64,000 nt of DNA from Clostridiales bacterium (lineage in GTDB: Bacteria; Bacillota; Clostridia; Lachnospirales; Lachnospiraceae): positions 62,001-126,000 of the forward strand of contig JAJQCD010000017.1 in the NCBI GenBank assembly GCA_021202925.1, in the 5' to 3' direction. Below the pieces are notes generated by a model. It searched no databases. It saw nothing but the letters and a program-made list of their open reading frames with translations, and was not told where the DNA came from. Shown here in pieces: positions 2,545-33,673 of this stretch. Position 1 is the stretch's first letter, and each line of letters opens with the position of its first letter. A program made the translations under genes and the position numbers.

Positions 2545-2940
2545 TTACAGAACCTTCTTGTTGTCCGCACCCGGCGTTGTCACAATGACCGCACTCGGTG
2601 TGATGAGCAACGCGCCCTTCGCGGTTGCTGCGCCATTGAACATCTTCTCGACCATCGCCTTGAATTCCGCCACGATTGCGCCCTCGGTCAGATACTCCGC
2701 AGTACCCTTGATCTGATATCCCTCCAGCGTCTTGGCATCATAGGCCGAAATGGCAATCTTGCCGTCATTCGCCCGGATATTGTTCAGGGTCGTCTCCAGG
2801 AACACATCACCGACAGCCAGCTTCCCATCCTCTGTTACCGTCTTAAAAGCAACCGGAACCACATTCGGCTCACCGTTCGCACAGGTCGCCAGATCCCACA
2901 TGCTTTCTGCCAGAACCTTCTTCACATTTTCGTTCATCAT
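2545..2940 (-). CDS. Pyridoxamine 5'-phosphate oxidase-like flavin-binding protein
   Basis: A 131-residue protein with the split-barrel fold pattern of the PNPOx-like superfamily. The N-terminal MWDLATCANGEPNVVPVAF strand pair is the part that usually contacts the flavin phosphate, and the middle has ISAYDAKTLEGYQIKGTAEYL. Such small proteins bind FMN, F420 or haem and are usually annotated as general-stress or flavin-reductase proteins. The substrate here is unknown. The start at 2940 follows AGGAGGT by about 8 nt; the second ATG directly after is equally possible. It is transcribed toward the HxlR regulator, but a terminator separates them. Its promoter region shares a 23-bp element with that of a glutaredoxin-like gene 3.4 kb away. 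Confidence 0.8.
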   Translation of the reverse strand: MMNENVKKVLAESMWDLATCANGEPNVVPVAFKTVTEDGKLAVGDVFLETTLNNIRANDGKIAISAYDAKTLEGYQIKGTAEYLTEGAIVAEFKAMVEKMFNGAATAKGALLITPSAVIVTTPGADNKKVL

Positions 2941-2978
2941 AAGAATGACCTCCTCAATTAAGATTTGTAACTGTGATC

Positions 2979-3027
2979 ACTATAATCAATTTACTGTCTG
3001 GCGGCAAGATATTAGTAAATTTATTAG
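2979..3027 (-). promoter_or_regulatory. Promoter plus putative operator shared with the gene at 6388
   Basis: Reverse-strand -10 TATAGT (2979-2984) and -35 TTGCCG (3002-3007) are 17 bp apart. A 23-bp element (3005-3027) overlaps the -35 and extends upstream; its core ATTAGTAAATTTATTAG is an imperfect palindrome. The same element, with 20 of 23 identical bases and at exactly the same distance from the -10, lies at 6461-6483. Confidence 0.6.
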
Positions 3028-28980: not shown

Positions 28981-29277
28981 TTACGCAATCCCCAAATGAT
29001 CTTTTACATGCTGCAATTCCGCGTCCAGGTGATTCACCTTCAGATAGTACATCATGCTTTGATGAAGGGATTTCAATGCCTCGTCCAGCTTTCGATCCAG
29101 ATTCATGTGTCCCTCGGCAATCAACTGAATATTCCGGTTGGTCTCGTTTTCGAGAGTAATCCTGATCGCTTTTACTTCTACTTTTGTGTGTTCGTGATCA
29201 GCTTTCAAAGCGGCAAGATTGCTTTCGATGCTGTCCACTTTCTCTAACAGTAAATCAAGCTTCTCACTGTCCGTCAT
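28981..29277 (-). CDS. Small coiled-coil protein of unknown function
   Basis: A 98-residue, strongly charged, almost entirely helical protein. The first half has heptad-like spacing (EKLDLLLEKVDSIESNLAALK and following) and an ENETNRNIQLIAEGHMNLDRKLDEAL segment. This pattern is common in small Clostridia/Bacilli proteins of unknown role, some encoded near mobile or defence genes. No catalytic motif, signal peptide or membrane segment is present. It has its own consensus promoter, a good AGGAGG site and its own terminator, so it is a monocistronic gene. It lies at the edge of an AT-rich toxin-antitoxin island. Confidence 0.75.
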   Translation of the reverse strand: MTDSEKLDLLLEKVDSIESNLAALKADHEHTKVEVKAIRITLENETNRNIQLIAEGHMNLDRKLDEALKSLHQSMMYYLKVNHLDAELQHVKDHLGIA

Positions 29278-29468: not shown

Positions 29469-29813
29469 TTAACCTCTCTGTAAAGTCAGTTCATTCCTCA
29501 CAGCTTTCTCAACAAAGCTGTTCAGGCTTATCTGGTTCGTTGCTGCGAAAATCGCAGCCTCTCTGTGCAGTTCAGGTGAGATCCGGACATTGAAACTGCC
29601 CTTATATGCTTTCTCTGGCTCGATACCTTCTTCCTTACAAAGCTCCAGATAGTCATCCACTGCACCATGAAAATCTTCGACCAGTTCCTTTGCCGTTTCT
29701 CCCTCATAAGAAATCAACGCACGTATTCCCATAACCTTCCCAAAGAATACACCATCATTTTCAGAAAATTCCACGCTTCCGACATAACCTTTATAATTCA
29801 TCGTGTTATTCAT
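29469..29813 (-). CDS. hicB: HicB-type antitoxin
   Basis: A 114-residue HicB protein. The N-terminal partially degraded RNase H-like domain is visible as MNYKGYVGSVEFSENDGVFFGKVMGIRALISYEGETAKELVEDFHGAVDDYLELC. The C-terminal part (SFNVRISPELHREAAIFAATNQISLNSFVEKAV) is a ribbon-helix-helix DNA-binding domain. HicB neutralises the HicA mRNA interferase and represses the operon. The start codon overlaps the reconstructed stop of hicA by four bases (ATGA), the usual coupling in this operon. A 24-bp palindrome upstream of hicA is its probable operator. Confidence 0.92.
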   Translation of the reverse strand: MNNTMNYKGYVGSVEFSENDGVFFGKVMGIRALISYEGETAKELVEDFHGAVDDYLELCKEEGIEPEKAYKGSFNVRISPELHREAAIFAATNQISLNSFVEKAVRNELTLQRG

Positions 29814-30062
29814 AAAAGCACCTCCGCTTCTAATTTTTCAATAATCTGTTTTTTGAGAATCCAGCAATTCTTTCCTTGGGTGCGGTTTATGAAGTAAAAT
29901 TGGAGTTCTGCCATTACAAATAAATTTAACCCTCGATCCACTGGTTTTTCCTTTGTCAGACCGCCCATAACCGAAACAGCCAAGTAATTGCTCTGTTTCT
30001 TCAAATGTAAAATCTTTAGGCTTTGATTTTAACCTCTTAACCAGCTTATCTTTTTGCCCCAC
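29810..30062 (-). pseudogene. hicA: HicA-type mRNA interferase toxin, frameshifted near the C-terminus
   Basis: A small toxin with the HicA double-stranded-RNA-binding-like fold: KLVKRLKSKPKDFTFEETEQLL, then GSRVKF and the catalytic His region LLHKPHP. As read, the frame ends after 74 codons (29838). If one T of the six-T run at 29851-29856 is removed, the frame continues QKQIIEKLEAEVLL and stops at 29810, overlapping the hicB start in the standard way. The tail matches the usual HicA C-terminal helix. So the frame is either truly broken, leaving a truncated toxin with its catalytic His intact, or affected by a homopolymer error. The start is GTG at 30062, 8 nt after GGAGG. Confidence 0.85.
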
Positions 30063-30147: not shown

Positions 30148-30421
30148 CTTGAAGTCAAAAGAAATCCATTGTTCGATACACATTCGGATTCTGTTCGAGA
30201 AAATCTGAAAGAAACAGTGGCAAAGCTACCTGCTTTCCATATGACCTTTTCAATAAGGCTAATTATTTCACAGCCCCCAAAAATAATTTTAATAATGAAT
30301 TTATATGCTTCTTCTTGACAATCAAATCAAATAAGCGTACCATAATGTACCAATCGAAAAAATTATGAGGTTTGTAAAAAATACCAGTAGATTTTTTTCT
30401 AAAATCGTGTATACTATAAAT
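30148..30421. other. AT-rich intergenic region
   Basis: No open reading frame with a ribosome site was seen. It holds the left copy of a 12-bp direct repeat (30266-30277) and, at its end, a -10-like TATACT (30410-30415) upstream of the structured RNA, without a convincing -35. Confidence 0.45.
30266..30277 (+). repeat. Left 12-bp direct repeat flanking the RNA/toxin unit
   Basis: TTTCACAGCCCC; an identical copy lies at 31289-31300, so the two bracket a unit of about 1.0 kb. Confidence 0.45.
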
Positions 30422-30560
30422 GAACAGAGATATTAAAGTACTTTCACACTTGCTAACAAGTGTTTTTTGGCCGACAAGGCTGCTATTGAAAGGATAATTT
30501 GACCGACGAGGTCTCTCTGGTTCGCCAGAGTAGGGTATGGTTAGCGCCGTACCCTTTTTT
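30422..30560 (+). ncRNA. Structured RNA upstream of a PemK-like gene (possible type III antitoxin RNA)
   Basis: Five stem-loops lie in 110 nt. (1) ACACTTG-CTAA-CAAGTGT followed by a T-run (30446-30468). (2) GGCC-GACAA-GGCT (30469-30481). (3) GACC-GACGA-GGTC (30501-30513). Stems 2 and 3 begin exactly 32 nt apart, share the loop GAC(A/G)A and differ by compensating base pairs. (4) CTCTGG-TTCG-CCAGAG (30515-30530). (5) GGGTATGG-6nt-CCGTACCC plus six T (30533-30560), an intrinsic terminator 14 nt before the toxin gene's ribosome site. Promoter, repeated RNA units, leaky terminator and a MazF/Kid-fold gene form the organisation of type III toxin-antitoxin loci. A cis-acting attenuator is the alternative. 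The 5' end is a guess from the -10-like box. Confidence 0.55.
30533..30560 (+). terminator. Intrinsic terminator between structured RNA and PemK-like gene
   Basis: 8-bp stem (30533-30540 with 30547-30554, one G-U pair), 6-nt loop TTAGCG and six T. It stands between the presumed promoter and the gene, so it must be read through for expression. Confidence 0.8.
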
Positions 30561-30588
30561 CATATAAAAAACTAAGGAGAGTTGCTGA

Positions 30589-31263
30589 TTGAAAGAATAT
30601 TTGAAAGCGCAAAGCAAAACTGATGAAACAATCCTTGCTAATTCATTTAGCACGGATGAACTTGAGCGATTTTCTAAATCTGATTACCGCTGGGCAGATA
30701 ACCGTTCAAAACAATTTCGCCACAAAACCGTGAAAAAAGGTGAGATTTATCAATTCGAATTTGGTAAGAATTTCATACCTGAAATGTCATACGAACACAG
30801 AGGACTTGTTATAGGAGTAAAGCAGAAGCTACTGTATGTGCTTCCTATCTTCTCTTACAATCCTACAAAACATACTGATGTATATCATCCTGTTGATCAC
30901 CCAACATCCAAAAGTGATATGTTTTTATTGAAAAGCAGTGAATTTTCCTTCATCAGCCATGACTCTGTTTTAAAGCTTAATGATATTCGAACCGTCAGTA
31001 TAAACCGTATATTGTATCAGCAAAATGGTATGATTCCACCATCCTCAGATACATATAAGCAGATTGAAAAACTCGCGCTGCAAAAATACTTTCCGTCTTT
31101 TGCATATGATTTTACCCAGATGGAACAAATTATCAGTGATCTTGAAAATAAGTTGAAAGAAAATGAAGAAACTCAAAAACAGCTGACTGCTGAAAATGAA
31201 GCACTTAAAGCTAAAATAGCTGAACTCTCCGAAGCATTAGAAAAGTCAAGACCACCGGCTTAG
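30589..31263 (+). CDS. PemK/MazF-fold toxin-like protein with C-terminal coiled coil
   Basis: A 224-residue protein; the start is TTG at 30589, 8 nt after AAGGAGA. Residues about 49-143 resemble the PemK/MazF/Kid barrel: KKGEIYQFEFG (first strand), EHRGLVIGVK (the R-P-V-V position), LLYVLPIFSYNP, and KLNDIRTVSINRILY, which matches the QIRTIDKRRL element of MazF. Residues about 175-220 form a strong coiled coil with heptads (LENKLKENEETQKQLTAENEAL). ToxN-type type III toxins have the same fold, so an endoribonuclease is plausible, but the sequence is far from known ToxN or CptN. Base composition is clearly more AT-rich than nearby housekeeping genes, which suggests transfer. Confidence 0.65.
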   Translation: MKEYLKAQSKTDETILANSFSTDELERFSKSDYRWADNRSKQFRHKTVKKGEIYQFEFGKNFIPEMSYEHRGLVIGVKQKLLYVLPIFSYNPTKHTDVYHPVDHPTSKSDMFLLKSSEFSFISHDSVLKLNDIRTVSINRILYQQNGMIPPSSDTYKQIEKLALQKYFPSFAYDFTQMEQIISDLENKLKENEETQKQLTAENEALKAKIAELSEALEKSRPPA

Positions 31264-31422: not shown

Positions 31423-33612
31423 TTACAGGTGCAGCACCCGGTCACGGATCTCCTGCGTCCGTCCCTGATTCCAGAACTGCGTGCCGATGTAGCCGCAGGT
31501 ACGGCGGGCGACACTCATCTTGCTCTGATCGCGGTTGCCGCAGTTCGGGCACTCCCAGATGAGCTTGCCGGACTCATCCTCGACGATCTTAATCTCTCCG
31601 TCATATCCGCAGCACTCACAATAATCGCTCTTGGTATTCAGTTCCGCGTACATGATATTATTGTAAATAAACTGCATCACGGTCAGAACAGCCGGAATGT
31701 TGTTCTGCATGTTCGGAACCTCGACATAGCTGATCGCGCCGCCCGGTGAAAGCTTCTGGAACTCGGACTCAAAACTCAGCTTGGTAAAGGCGTCGATCTC
31801 CTCGGTCACATGAACGTGATAGCTGTTCGTAATATAATTCTTGTCCGTCACACCCTTGATCACGCCGAAACGCTTCTGCAGACACTTCGCGAACTTGTAG
31901 GTGGTAGACTCCAGCGGCGTGCCGTACACGGAATAGCTGATATGCTCCGCGGCCTTCCACTCCGCACACTTATCATTCAGGCGCTGCATCACAGCCAAGG
32001 CAAACGGCTTCGCCTCCGGGTCTGTATGCGACTTTCCGGTCATGCGGACGCACATCTCGTGCAGACCCGCATAGCCCAGAGAAATCGTCGAATAACCGTC
32101 ATAAAGAAGCTTATCGATCTTCTCCCCCTTCTGTAAGCGTGCCAGAGCACCATACTGCCAGAGAATCGGAGCCACATCAGACACGGTCCCCAGAAGGCGT
32201 TCATGGCGGCAGCGCAGAGCCTTGTGGCACAGCTCCAGGCGTTCATCCAGAATCTCCCAGAAGCGATCCATATCTCCCTCCGCCGTGCAGGCCACATCCA
32301 CGAGATTGATCGTCACGACGCCCTGATTGAAGCGGCCGTAAAATTTGTGTGTGCCGTCCGGATTGCGCTGGTTATCCTCTACCGTCAGGAAGGAACGGCA
32401 TCCCATGCAGGTATAGACATTCCCCTTCTTCAGTTCCCGCATCATTTTCGCAGAAATGTAATCCGGCACCATGCGCTTCGCCGTACATTTCGCAGCCAGC
32501 TCCGTCAAATACCAGTATTTGGAATCTTCAGTAATATTATCCTCATCCAGCACATAGATCAGCTTCGGGAACGCCGGAGTAATCCAGACGCCGCGTTCAT
32601 TCTTCACGCCCTGCATCCGCTGCACCAGAACTTCCTCGATAATCATCGCCAGATCGTCCCTGGTCCGCCCCTCCGGCGCCTCATCCAGATACATGAACAT
32701 CGTCACAAACGGCGCCTGGCCGTTGCAGGTCATCAGTGTGATCAGCTGATACTGGATCGTCTGGATGCCGCTTCGGATCTCATCGCGCAGGCGGCACTCC
32801 ACCACCCGGTTGATAATCACCTCGTCCAACGGCTCCCCACACAGCCGACGCTCCTCAATAACGCACCGCTTCAGCTTCTGGCGGCTGACATCCACAAACG
32901 GCGCCAGATGAGCGAGGCTGAAGGACTGGCCTCCATACTGGTTGCTCGCGACCTGCGCGACGATCTGCGTCGTCACGTTACATGCGGTAAAGAAGCTGTG
33001 CGGCTTCTCGATCATCGTCTCGCTGATGACCGTGCCGTTCTGGAGCATATCCTCCAGATTGATCAGATCGCAGTTGTGCTCCCTCTGCGCGTAATAATCC
33101 GTATCATGAAAATGGATAATCCCTTCCTCATGCGCCTGGACAACGTCCTCCGGCAGCAGCACGCGGCGGCTCAGATCCCGGCTCACTTCACCCGCCATAT
33201 AATCTCTCTGGGTTGAATTGATCACCGGGTTCTTGTTCGAGTTCTCCTGCTTGACCTCCTCATTGATATGGTCGATCAGGGCAAGAATGCCGTTATCCGT
33301 CGTATTGGACTTGCGGGTAATCTCTCTGCGATAACGGTAGCGCACATACTTCTGCGCGACCTCATAACCGCGCATCTCCATGATGCCGGTCTCCACCATA
33401 TCCTGAATATCCTCCACACTGACCGCATGTGTGGAATCACCGACCTTCCTGGCGATGGTATCCGCTACCGCGCGAATCTGATACTCATTCATTCGATGAA
33501 GAACGTCCACGCTCTGATTCGCCTTGCCGATCGCGTTCACAATCTTGCTCTCGTCAAAGTCAACCTCTTTTCCGTTCCTCTTGATTACGTTGGTCCTTAC
33601 CTCAATCCCCAT
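31423..33612 (-). CDS. nrdD: Anaerobic ribonucleoside-triphosphate reductase (class III)
   Basis: A 729-residue glycyl-radical enzyme that makes deoxyribonucleotides without oxygen. An N-terminal ATP-cone (VIKRNGKEVDFDESKIVNAI, residues about 8-100) senses ATP/dATP. The catalytic barrel has HFHDTDYY and YTCMGCRSFL. The C-terminus has the zinc ribbon CECCGYDG...CPNCGN and the glycyl-radical loop RRTCGYIGTQFWNQGR. The start at 33612 (MGIEV) follows GAGTGGAG; an upstream extension lacks a ribosome site. The activase gene nrdG, which normally lies directly downstream, is missing; the AT-rich toxin unit occupies that place. Two NrdR boxes upstream indicate NrdR repression. Confidence 0.96.
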   Translation of the reverse strand: MGIEVRTNVIKRNGKEVDFDESKIVNAIGKANQSVDVLHRMNEYQIRAVADTIARKVGDSTHAVSVEDIQDMVETGIMEMRGYEVAQKYVRYRYRREITRKSNTTDNGILALIDHINEEVKQENSNKNPVINSTQRDYMAGEVSRDLSRRVLLPEDVVQAHEEGIIHFHDTDYYAQREHNCDLINLEDMLQNGTVISETMIEKPHSFFTACNVTTQIVAQVASNQYGGQSFSLAHLAPFVDVSRQKLKRCVIEERRLCGEPLDEVIINRVVECRLRDEIRSGIQTIQYQLITLMTCNGQAPFVTMFMYLDEAPEGRTRDDLAMIIEEVLVQRMQGVKNERGVWITPAFPKLIYVLDEDNITEDSKYWYLTELAAKCTAKRMVPDYISAKMMRELKKGNVYTCMGCRSFLTVEDNQRNPDGTHKFYGRFNQGVVTINLVDVACTAEGDMDRFWEILDERLELCHKALRCRHERLLGTVSDVAPILWQYGALARLQKGEKIDKLLYDGYSTISLGYAGLHEMCVRMTGKSHTDPEAKPFALAVMQRLNDKCAEWKAAEHISYSVYGTPLESTTYKFAKCLQKRFGVIKGVTDKNYITNSYHVHVTEEIDAFTKLSFESEFQKLSPGGAISYVEVPNMQNNIPAVLTVMQFIYNNIMYAELNTKSDYCECCGYDGEIKIVEDESGKLIWECPNCGNRDQSKMSVARRTCGYIGTQFWNQGRTQEIRDRVLHL

Positions 33613-33673
33613 GGTTCTCCACTCCTCGTATCTGTAAAATAAAGCGGAACATGTCCTGACCATATTCCCTCAA

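Follow-up and report, generated by a model that had tools for sequence, protein, structure and literature searches.

A candidate type III-like toxin-antitoxin locus of Clostridia combining a conserved hairpin RNA with a PemK/MazF-like gene

Known RNA antitoxins and the organisation of the new locus

In the type III toxin-antitoxin families ToxIN, CptIN and TenpIN, an RNA with a repeated element, a terminator and a gene of the Kid/MazF fold follow one another in one transcription unit (PMC5086642, PMC4627078), and the excess of RNA over toxin is presumed to be set by read-through of the terminator (PMC5086642). As far as these and two further accounts go, the type III set is composed of the three classical families together with AbiF and AvcID (PMC5086642, PMC4627078, PMC12373285, PMC10511110). 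In the AbiF/RCd22 pair of Clostridioides difficile (RF03085), the gene is preceded by an RNA about 100-130 nt long that carries two hairpin motifs and a terminator of its own; RCd22 is reported to bind AbiF directly and thereby to neutralise it both in cis and in trans, the protein being modelled as a dimer (PMC12373285). The RNA of AvcID directly inhibits a deaminase unrelated to ToxN, with no terminator predicted between the two parts (PMC10511110), and type III control is therefore not limited to ToxN.

The locus described here lies in a 64,000-nt stretch of DNA, referred to below as the window, in which positions are counted. On the plus strand, a chain of hairpins (30441-30555) leads into a run of six T, a ribosome binding site AAGGAG (30574-30579) and a TTG-started gene of 224 codons (30589-31263), the probable toxin gene as judged from sequence comparison, profiles and a structure model. 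A first-pass annotation, made from the letters alone, had pointed to stem-loops ending in T6 directly before the ribosome site of this gene, and this arrangement holds, with hairpins at 30447-30555 and T6 at 30555-30560. Upstream of the RNA, a -10-like hexamer TATACT was noted by eye at 30410-30415 (plus strand) with a poor -35 element; the promoter scan favoured a different, spurious site in the window. In 32 of 48 sequences, the best site of the scan is an exact TATAAT located 61-111 nt 5' of the second loop, and TTGACA-17-TATAAT is present in L047, L049 and L051. Inspection by eye showed little space for a second promoter between RNA and gene in most of the loci printed.

Similarity to ToxIN, CptIN and TenpIN extends to the order of RNA, terminator and Kid/MazF-class gene and to the presence of a repeated RNA element. 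The RNA is directly upstream of the gene and linked to it, the terminator lies between the two, and tandem repeats are found in a reduced form, with a single one in locus L033. Differences concern the protein, which has no PF13958 match and carries a coiled coil, and the RNA, where pseudoknot repeats of 34-50 nt in the classical families (lengths as given in PMC12373285) contrast with two 13-nt hairpins 32 nt apart. AbiF/RCd22 is the closest in layout and offers the best functional parallel for the new pair, although AbiF is a HEPN protein whereas the new one has similarity to PemK; no match to RF03085 was found in 30380-30620 at E up to 5. AvcID differs from the new pair in its enzyme, in its RNA and in having no predicted terminator between the parts.

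A survey of the window with Rfam gave no match at gathering scores. With the threshold relaxed to E 5, PreQ1 (E 0.23) and U3 snoRNA (4.1) were the sole matches in 30380-30620, and both were rejected, being far under their gathering scores. Four letter versions of the hairpin were not found in the literature searched, nor was any RNA antitoxin for such a PemK-like protein described in it, most subscription journals and bioRxiv being outside the scope of this search. Thousands of candidate RNAs from human microbiomes, three of them located before ToxN genes, are reported in PMC8040213, and the new RNA may be present among these candidates, unrecognised.

Structure of the RNA and its linkage to the gene

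The substructures of the RNA are described from 5' to 3', all on the plus strand. A possible closing helix seen in the alignment, CTTTC (30441-30445) with GAAAG (30488-30492), encloses the 5' hairpin and hairpin 1; 78.0% of its cells are paired and 3 of 5 pairs change on both sides, while it is lost in some divergent members. The 5' hairpin, CACTTG/CAAGTG (30447-30462), is variable among relatives (69.9% of cells paired), and the lower regularity of both elements comes partly from poor alignment of divergent members in this part. A U-tract (30463-30468; 34 of 41 sequences read TTTTT across five aligned columns) precedes conserved hairpin 1, GGCC-GACAA-GGCT (30469-30481), in which 99.4% of cells are paired and all four pairs show two-sided changes. 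Conserved hairpin 2, GACC-GACGA-GGTC (30501-30513), is preceded by UUU and paired in 100% of cells, with two-sided changes in 3 of 4 pairs. It is followed by a spacer hairpin, CTCTGG/CCAGAG (30515-30530), paired in 95.1% of cells and changed on both sides in 5 of 6 pairs, and by the intrinsic terminator (30532-30560), comprised of a stem at 30532-30555 and T6 at 30555-30560, where the 3' end of the RNA is predicted. The terminator is paired in 98.8% of cells, and 5 of its 10 pairs are changed on both sides.

The two conserved hairpins start exactly 32 nt apart in the window, at 30469 and 30501, and share the loop GAC(A/G)A, as had been noticed on first inspection. Measured between starts, the distance is 32 nt in most loci; in the others that the script resolved, it ranges from 28 to 34 nt. 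The hairpin 1 loop reads GAYRA in 40 of 41 aligned sequences, and near-constant loops are combined with changing stems, of which 12 versions exist in hairpin 1 and 5 in hairpin 2. U-rich stretches are located upstream of both GACRA hairpins, and conservation of the RNA resides in stems, loops and these short stretches. The "repeat" in the window is accordingly limited to the hairpin and its preceding U-rich stretch, and the 32-nt units are otherwise dissimilar. There is no evident pseudoknot, long ToxI-type repeat or spacer-like stretch in the RNA.

Folding of 30435-30566 gives -44.9 kcal/mol, compared with a mean of -30.8 for shuffled sequences (z -3.79), and 1 of 200 shuffles was as good. 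Comparative evidence is decisive and confirms that the structure is real. In the alignment of 41 sequences, 35 tested pairs are paired in 90.5% of cells, 26 of them changed on both sides, and covariation is 0.260. The means of 500 column shuffles were 83.8%, 13.2 +/- 2.0 two-sided pairs and 0.161, and none reached the observed values; sliding the partners by 1-3 columns gave maxima of 47.9% paired cells, 17 two-sided pairs and a covariation of 0.092. The conserved covariation by which the first-pass annotation proposed to judge the RNA is thus strong. Nested hairpins account for the covariation seen, and the loops are near-invariant, so no covariation is readable in them.

A peptide-pattern scan of a collection of genomes from 84,980 species revealed 48 homologous loci, 49-79% identical in the best segment. 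Judged by their record titles, the loci come mostly from Lachnospiraceae and other Clostridia, some being titled Oscillospiraceae or other. One copy, L010, 73% identical to the window protein of Clostridia, carries the title Candidatus Gastranaerophilales; mis-binning is our guess. With the protein profile, the gene was found in 14 of 397 genomes in the family survey, three of them distant, and in 2 of 291 genomes in the class survey, own genome counted; its distribution is therefore scattered and rare.

For the RNA, a covariance model (R1) was built from the 41 aligned sequences, window included. Seven loci (L009, L030, L033, L038, L040, L042 and L054), near-duplicates of members or odd forms, were left out of this alignment, as was L053, which has no upstream sequence, and all seven match R1, several of them being near-duplicates of members. 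In 47 of 48 loci the RNA is located directly or shortly upstream of the gene, and the contig of the remaining one, L053, begins inside the gene. The first-pass annotation had raised the question whether such an RNA always precedes homologues of the protein. Among close loci this is so in the 47 just mentioned, and it is missing beside three distant relatives only. These three share 25-30% identity in the core, and at E up to 1 the RNA is absent from all 35 comparison loci, composed of the three, 20 PemK/MazF loci and 12 ToxN loci. The distant homologues (L090, L091 and L092) are about 260-271 aa long with a similar core, and two of them are located near phage-like genes (by eye).

In the genus survey, R1 matches were detected in 3 of 21 genomes, namely the own genome, G691, where the RNA is degenerate and the gene is missing next to it, and one chance match. 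A shorter core model, R2, found none besides the own genome under strict filters in a phylum-wide survey of 298 genomes, class members included. Weak R1 matches were dropped as chance, seven in the family survey as well as those in G558 (E 1.6e-7), G523, G533 and G680; they correspond to a terminator-like hairpin only (by eye), and R2 gave one match in these 12 loci, at E 0.5. The mobile-carrier search disclosed no match in phage or plasmid records or viral contigs.

The protein and its flanking genes

The protein of 224 aa comprises N-terminal helices, a PemK/MazF-like core at about 47-150 and a C-terminal coiled coil at about 169-220, the last already recognised in the first-pass annotation. 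For PemK/MazF (PF02452), 13 of 15 core sequences, distant ones included, match at E up to 1 (best 1.7e-6), and only four families are matched by any of the 15 at this threshold. Among whole proteins of the family, 18 of 32 match PF02452 at E up to 0.1 (best 0.0014). The core of the window protein itself reaches E 0.013 along profile positions 1-94 of 109, with 16.2 bits against a curated cut-off of 23.1, and this match is weaker than a chance-looking one to Gal11_ABD1. The gene had been described as MazF/PemK/Kid-like on its motifs; this description stands as a weak relationship repeated among relatives, while the window protein taken by itself stays under the cut-off.

ToxN (PF13958) was not matched by any of the 15 core sequences at E up to 1, and the whole window protein reaches neither the PemK nor the ToxN family. 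Its matches in Pfam, NCBIfam, PADLOC and most of PHROGs fall in the coiled coil, with the exception of phrog_1412 at residues 36-96 (E 0.0025). Of the 32 family members, 28 match this group, "mazE-like" in PHROGs, with E values of 0.1 or lower (best 1.1e-6). The three distant homologues look like phrog_1412 but differ in the absence of the RNA and of Q55, E69 and R71. Family profiles for Abi_2/HEPN were matched neither by the 15 core sequences nor by the window protein.

In profile comparison, the 15-sequence core profile scores 24.6 to a local PemK alignment and 26.2 to a local ToxN alignment. Both values exceed all 60 column shuffles each (maxima 19.7 for PemK and 17.2 for ToxN) and the reversed profiles. 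With hhalign the same profile gives a probability of 14% each, over stretches of 23 and 35 columns; when the profile is restricted to the 12 RNA-linked sequences, the values drop to 1.4% for PemK and 0.2% for ToxN. The stretch aligned with ToxN sets EHR-GLVIGVKQKLLYVLPIFSYNPTKH over QHR..GVVVICNKRKYLIPLSHPVEKH. Judged from these sequence comparisons, kinship of the core with PemK is likely, and that with ToxN is suggestive.

The AlphaFold2 model has a mean pLDDT of 83.6 and a pTM of 0.65, other models being as low as 58.7. In our reading, its predicted order of strands and helices is compatible with the Kid/MazF fold, to which a long C-terminal helix is added. Solved structures were also searched by sequence and the results set aside: the full protein gave weak coiled-coil matches only, and MazF chains appeared for the core at E about 0.09, ranked after two unrelated chitin-biosynthesis chains at about 0.06. 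The new core resembles type II MazF/PemK/Kid in a weak but nearly full-length profile match. Differences are the coiled coil, one changed residue and the fact that no common protein antitoxin was found. At what we take to be the MazF Thr position, the new family has Phe or Cys (by eye).

The alignment of 32 proteins shows 44 invariant columns, 18 of them within residues 51-76. Invariant in the 12 RNA-linked sequences and missing in all three RNA-less distant homologues are 22 residues, including Q55, E69 and R71. Along the first 94 codons, dN is 0.009-0.027 and dS 0.22-0.74 in 6 of 8 pairs with unsaturated dS, which shows purifying selection on this part of the compared copies.

Flanks of the loci were compared in frames of two lengths. 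Frames of 100 or more codons gave 17 similar pairs, the strong ones coming from the close relatives L029/L030 and L037/L038/L039 and the remaining ones being 25-46% identical. When frames of at least 30 codons were compared up to 1500 nt on each side, at the window and at the 36 unbroken loci, 25 similar pairs emerged from 74 flank pieces, mainly within the same close relatives, and no piece is tied to more than four others. This second comparison disclosed no third gene common to loci beyond close relatives, and because flank frames are not shared more widely, the RNA-gene pair does not appear to be accompanied by a protein antitoxin.

Proposed function, alternatives and variant loci

We consider a two-part, type III-like module, composed of an RNA antitoxin and a toxin of the Kid/MazF/ToxN class, to be the best explanation, with a probability of roughly 0.7. 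The first-pass annotation had arrived at a type III-like reading, which is supported by the linkage in 47 of 48 loci, the strong covariation and PF02452 in 13 of 15 cores; inhibition itself is what we infer. Its caution that two short repeats might mark a new family also stands: the RNA has two short hairpins and not long pseudoknot repeats, so a new family with a type III-like mode of action is a better name for the pair than ToxIN, CptIN or TenpIN.

In the mechanism proposed, a promoter upstream of 30440 would give an RNA of about 130-140 nt. Most transcripts would end at the terminator (30555-30560) and rarer read-through would carry the toxin gene, so that RNA would outnumber toxin. The encoded protein, probably an endoribonuclease that cuts mRNA and belongs to the Kid/MazF/ToxN fold class, would be kept dimeric or multimeric through its coiled coil. 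Both GACRA-loop hairpins, together with the single-stranded U-rich stretch preceding each of them, would attach to the toxin and obstruct its active site. If transcription stopped, as in phage infection or stress, or if the locus were lost, the RNA would decay first and the toxin would be freed. The layout, the Kid-like core, the absence of a common protein partner and the tolerance of about 300 extra nt in L031 fit an RNA acting on the protein in trans.

If the proposal is true, type III control would gain a further family, distinct in its RNA architecture and with a protein akin to PemK and perhaps to ToxN, which would bear on how RNase toxins came under protein or RNA antitoxins. Gut Clostridia would be given an unrecognised addiction or anti-phage module, and the covariance model makes the pair easy to annotate.

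Decay of the loci was followed as well. The toxin frame is unbroken in 36 of 48 loci and broken or truncated in 12, some frame breaks in metagenome assemblies being possibly assembly errors. The RNA is present at all 36 unbroken loci and at 11 of the 12 broken ones, the twelfth being L053, which starts inside the gene. In the family survey, a strong RNA match (E below 1e-23) was found in 17 genomes, and in 24 at E up to 0.01. Of the 17, 11 have the close protein and six have no gene match, two of the latter (L059 and L062) retaining the start of the toxin gene; this orphan set overlaps in genomes with the set of 48 loci. Further orphan RNAs are L096 and the degenerate L105. In L096 (genome G406) both loops are GGCAA, the terminator-like hairpin is different and longer, and no toxin gene match was found. 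The pattern fits loss of the toxin before the antitoxin, but the asymmetry alone is modest evidence because the gene is five to six times as long as the RNA and would usually break first by target size. By our arithmetic, the chance of zero RNA-first losses is about 0.18 for 11 events and 0.05 for 19.

These observations bear on the possibility that the RNA is a cis-acting leader only, whose hairpins are bound by the protein or another factor controlling terminator read-through or translation, with no need to neutralise the protein. The RNA belongs to the 5' leader and its terminator immediately precedes the ribosome site, so the same linkage would be expected, and once the terminator 3' arm is removed, the freed 5' arm does pair upstream (mean probability 0.56). 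However, this pairing has no recurrent partner, and no terminator-replacing pairing recurs in 8 or more of the 41 sequences. A leader-peptide or antiterminator mechanism, looked for within these limits and among ATG frames of at least 8 codons, which 24 of 41 RNAs do not have, was set aside. Also against a leader, the RNA is kept with about 300 extra nt between terminator and gene (L031) and where the gene is broken or gone, and a Kid-like protein without a common protein antitoxin needs some inhibitor. Altogether, we regard a role in cis only as unlikely.

Two other explanations are more doubtful still. Instead of inhibiting the protein, the RNA could serve actively as guide, cofactor or bait within a defence complex of RNA and protein; linkage would be the same, and paired hairpin RNAs of the AbiF type are described together with RNases thought to stand near the origin of Cas13 (PMC12373285). 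The conservation confined to stems, loops and short U-rich stretches, with no evident spacer-like stretch, and the gene-less RNAs, which fit an inhibitor better than a cofactor, make this improbable. We give the least credence to a type II (PemK/MazF) toxin with an overlooked small protein antitoxin and an incidental RNA. It would account for the PF02452 similarity and would suit the HicAB-like pair just upstream in the window, but the same count of frames (ATG starts only) and the lack of any flank frame common beyond close relatives (at least 30 codons, up to 1500 nt away) make it very improbable.

Within the type III-like reading, one unprocessed RNA might clamp a coiled-coil dimer of a Kid-fold RNase by two simple hairpins, one per subunit and without pseudoknots, the number of hairpins tracking oligomerisation; we hold this only tentatively. 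It is suggested by L033 (2700-3564), the sole locus with a single GACRA hairpin, hairpin 1 being missing, among 36 unbroken relatives and the window. Its protein is the shortest (187 aa), with most of the coil missing and 19 residues after the KYF motif, compared with 37-64 in the others measured by script. The idea is weakened by L043, in which a protein of 195 aa with a short tail of 28 residues (our count) is accompanied by both hairpins. L033 would offer a ready natural test of stoichiometry. A promoter-like TTGATT-17-TATAAT is located in it immediately before the remaining hairpin. In L031, 319 nt separate the modelled RNA end from the unbroken gene and the RNA is kept; the roughly 300 extra nt (2681-3001) lie between terminator and gene and contain inverted repeats (by eye).

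On the other side of the unit in the window, a minus-strand gene (31423-33663) presumably encodes an anaerobic ribonucleotide reductase, as read by eye. A clean empty site was sought in a same-genus genome and not accepted, the gene beside the reductase being different there and the insertion boundary impossible to place. A 98-aa protein of coiled-coil type (28981-29277, minus strand), with no match above Pfam cut-off, adjoins a HicAB-like toxin-antitoxin pair, which is likewise on the minus strand (29469-30062) and lies some 380 nt upstream of the RNA. HicB is matched at E 3.2e-24 and HicA at 0.0016, the latter under its cut-off, and two unrelated toxin-antitoxin modules, the HicAB-like pair and the RNA-gene unit, are probably adjacent in this segment.
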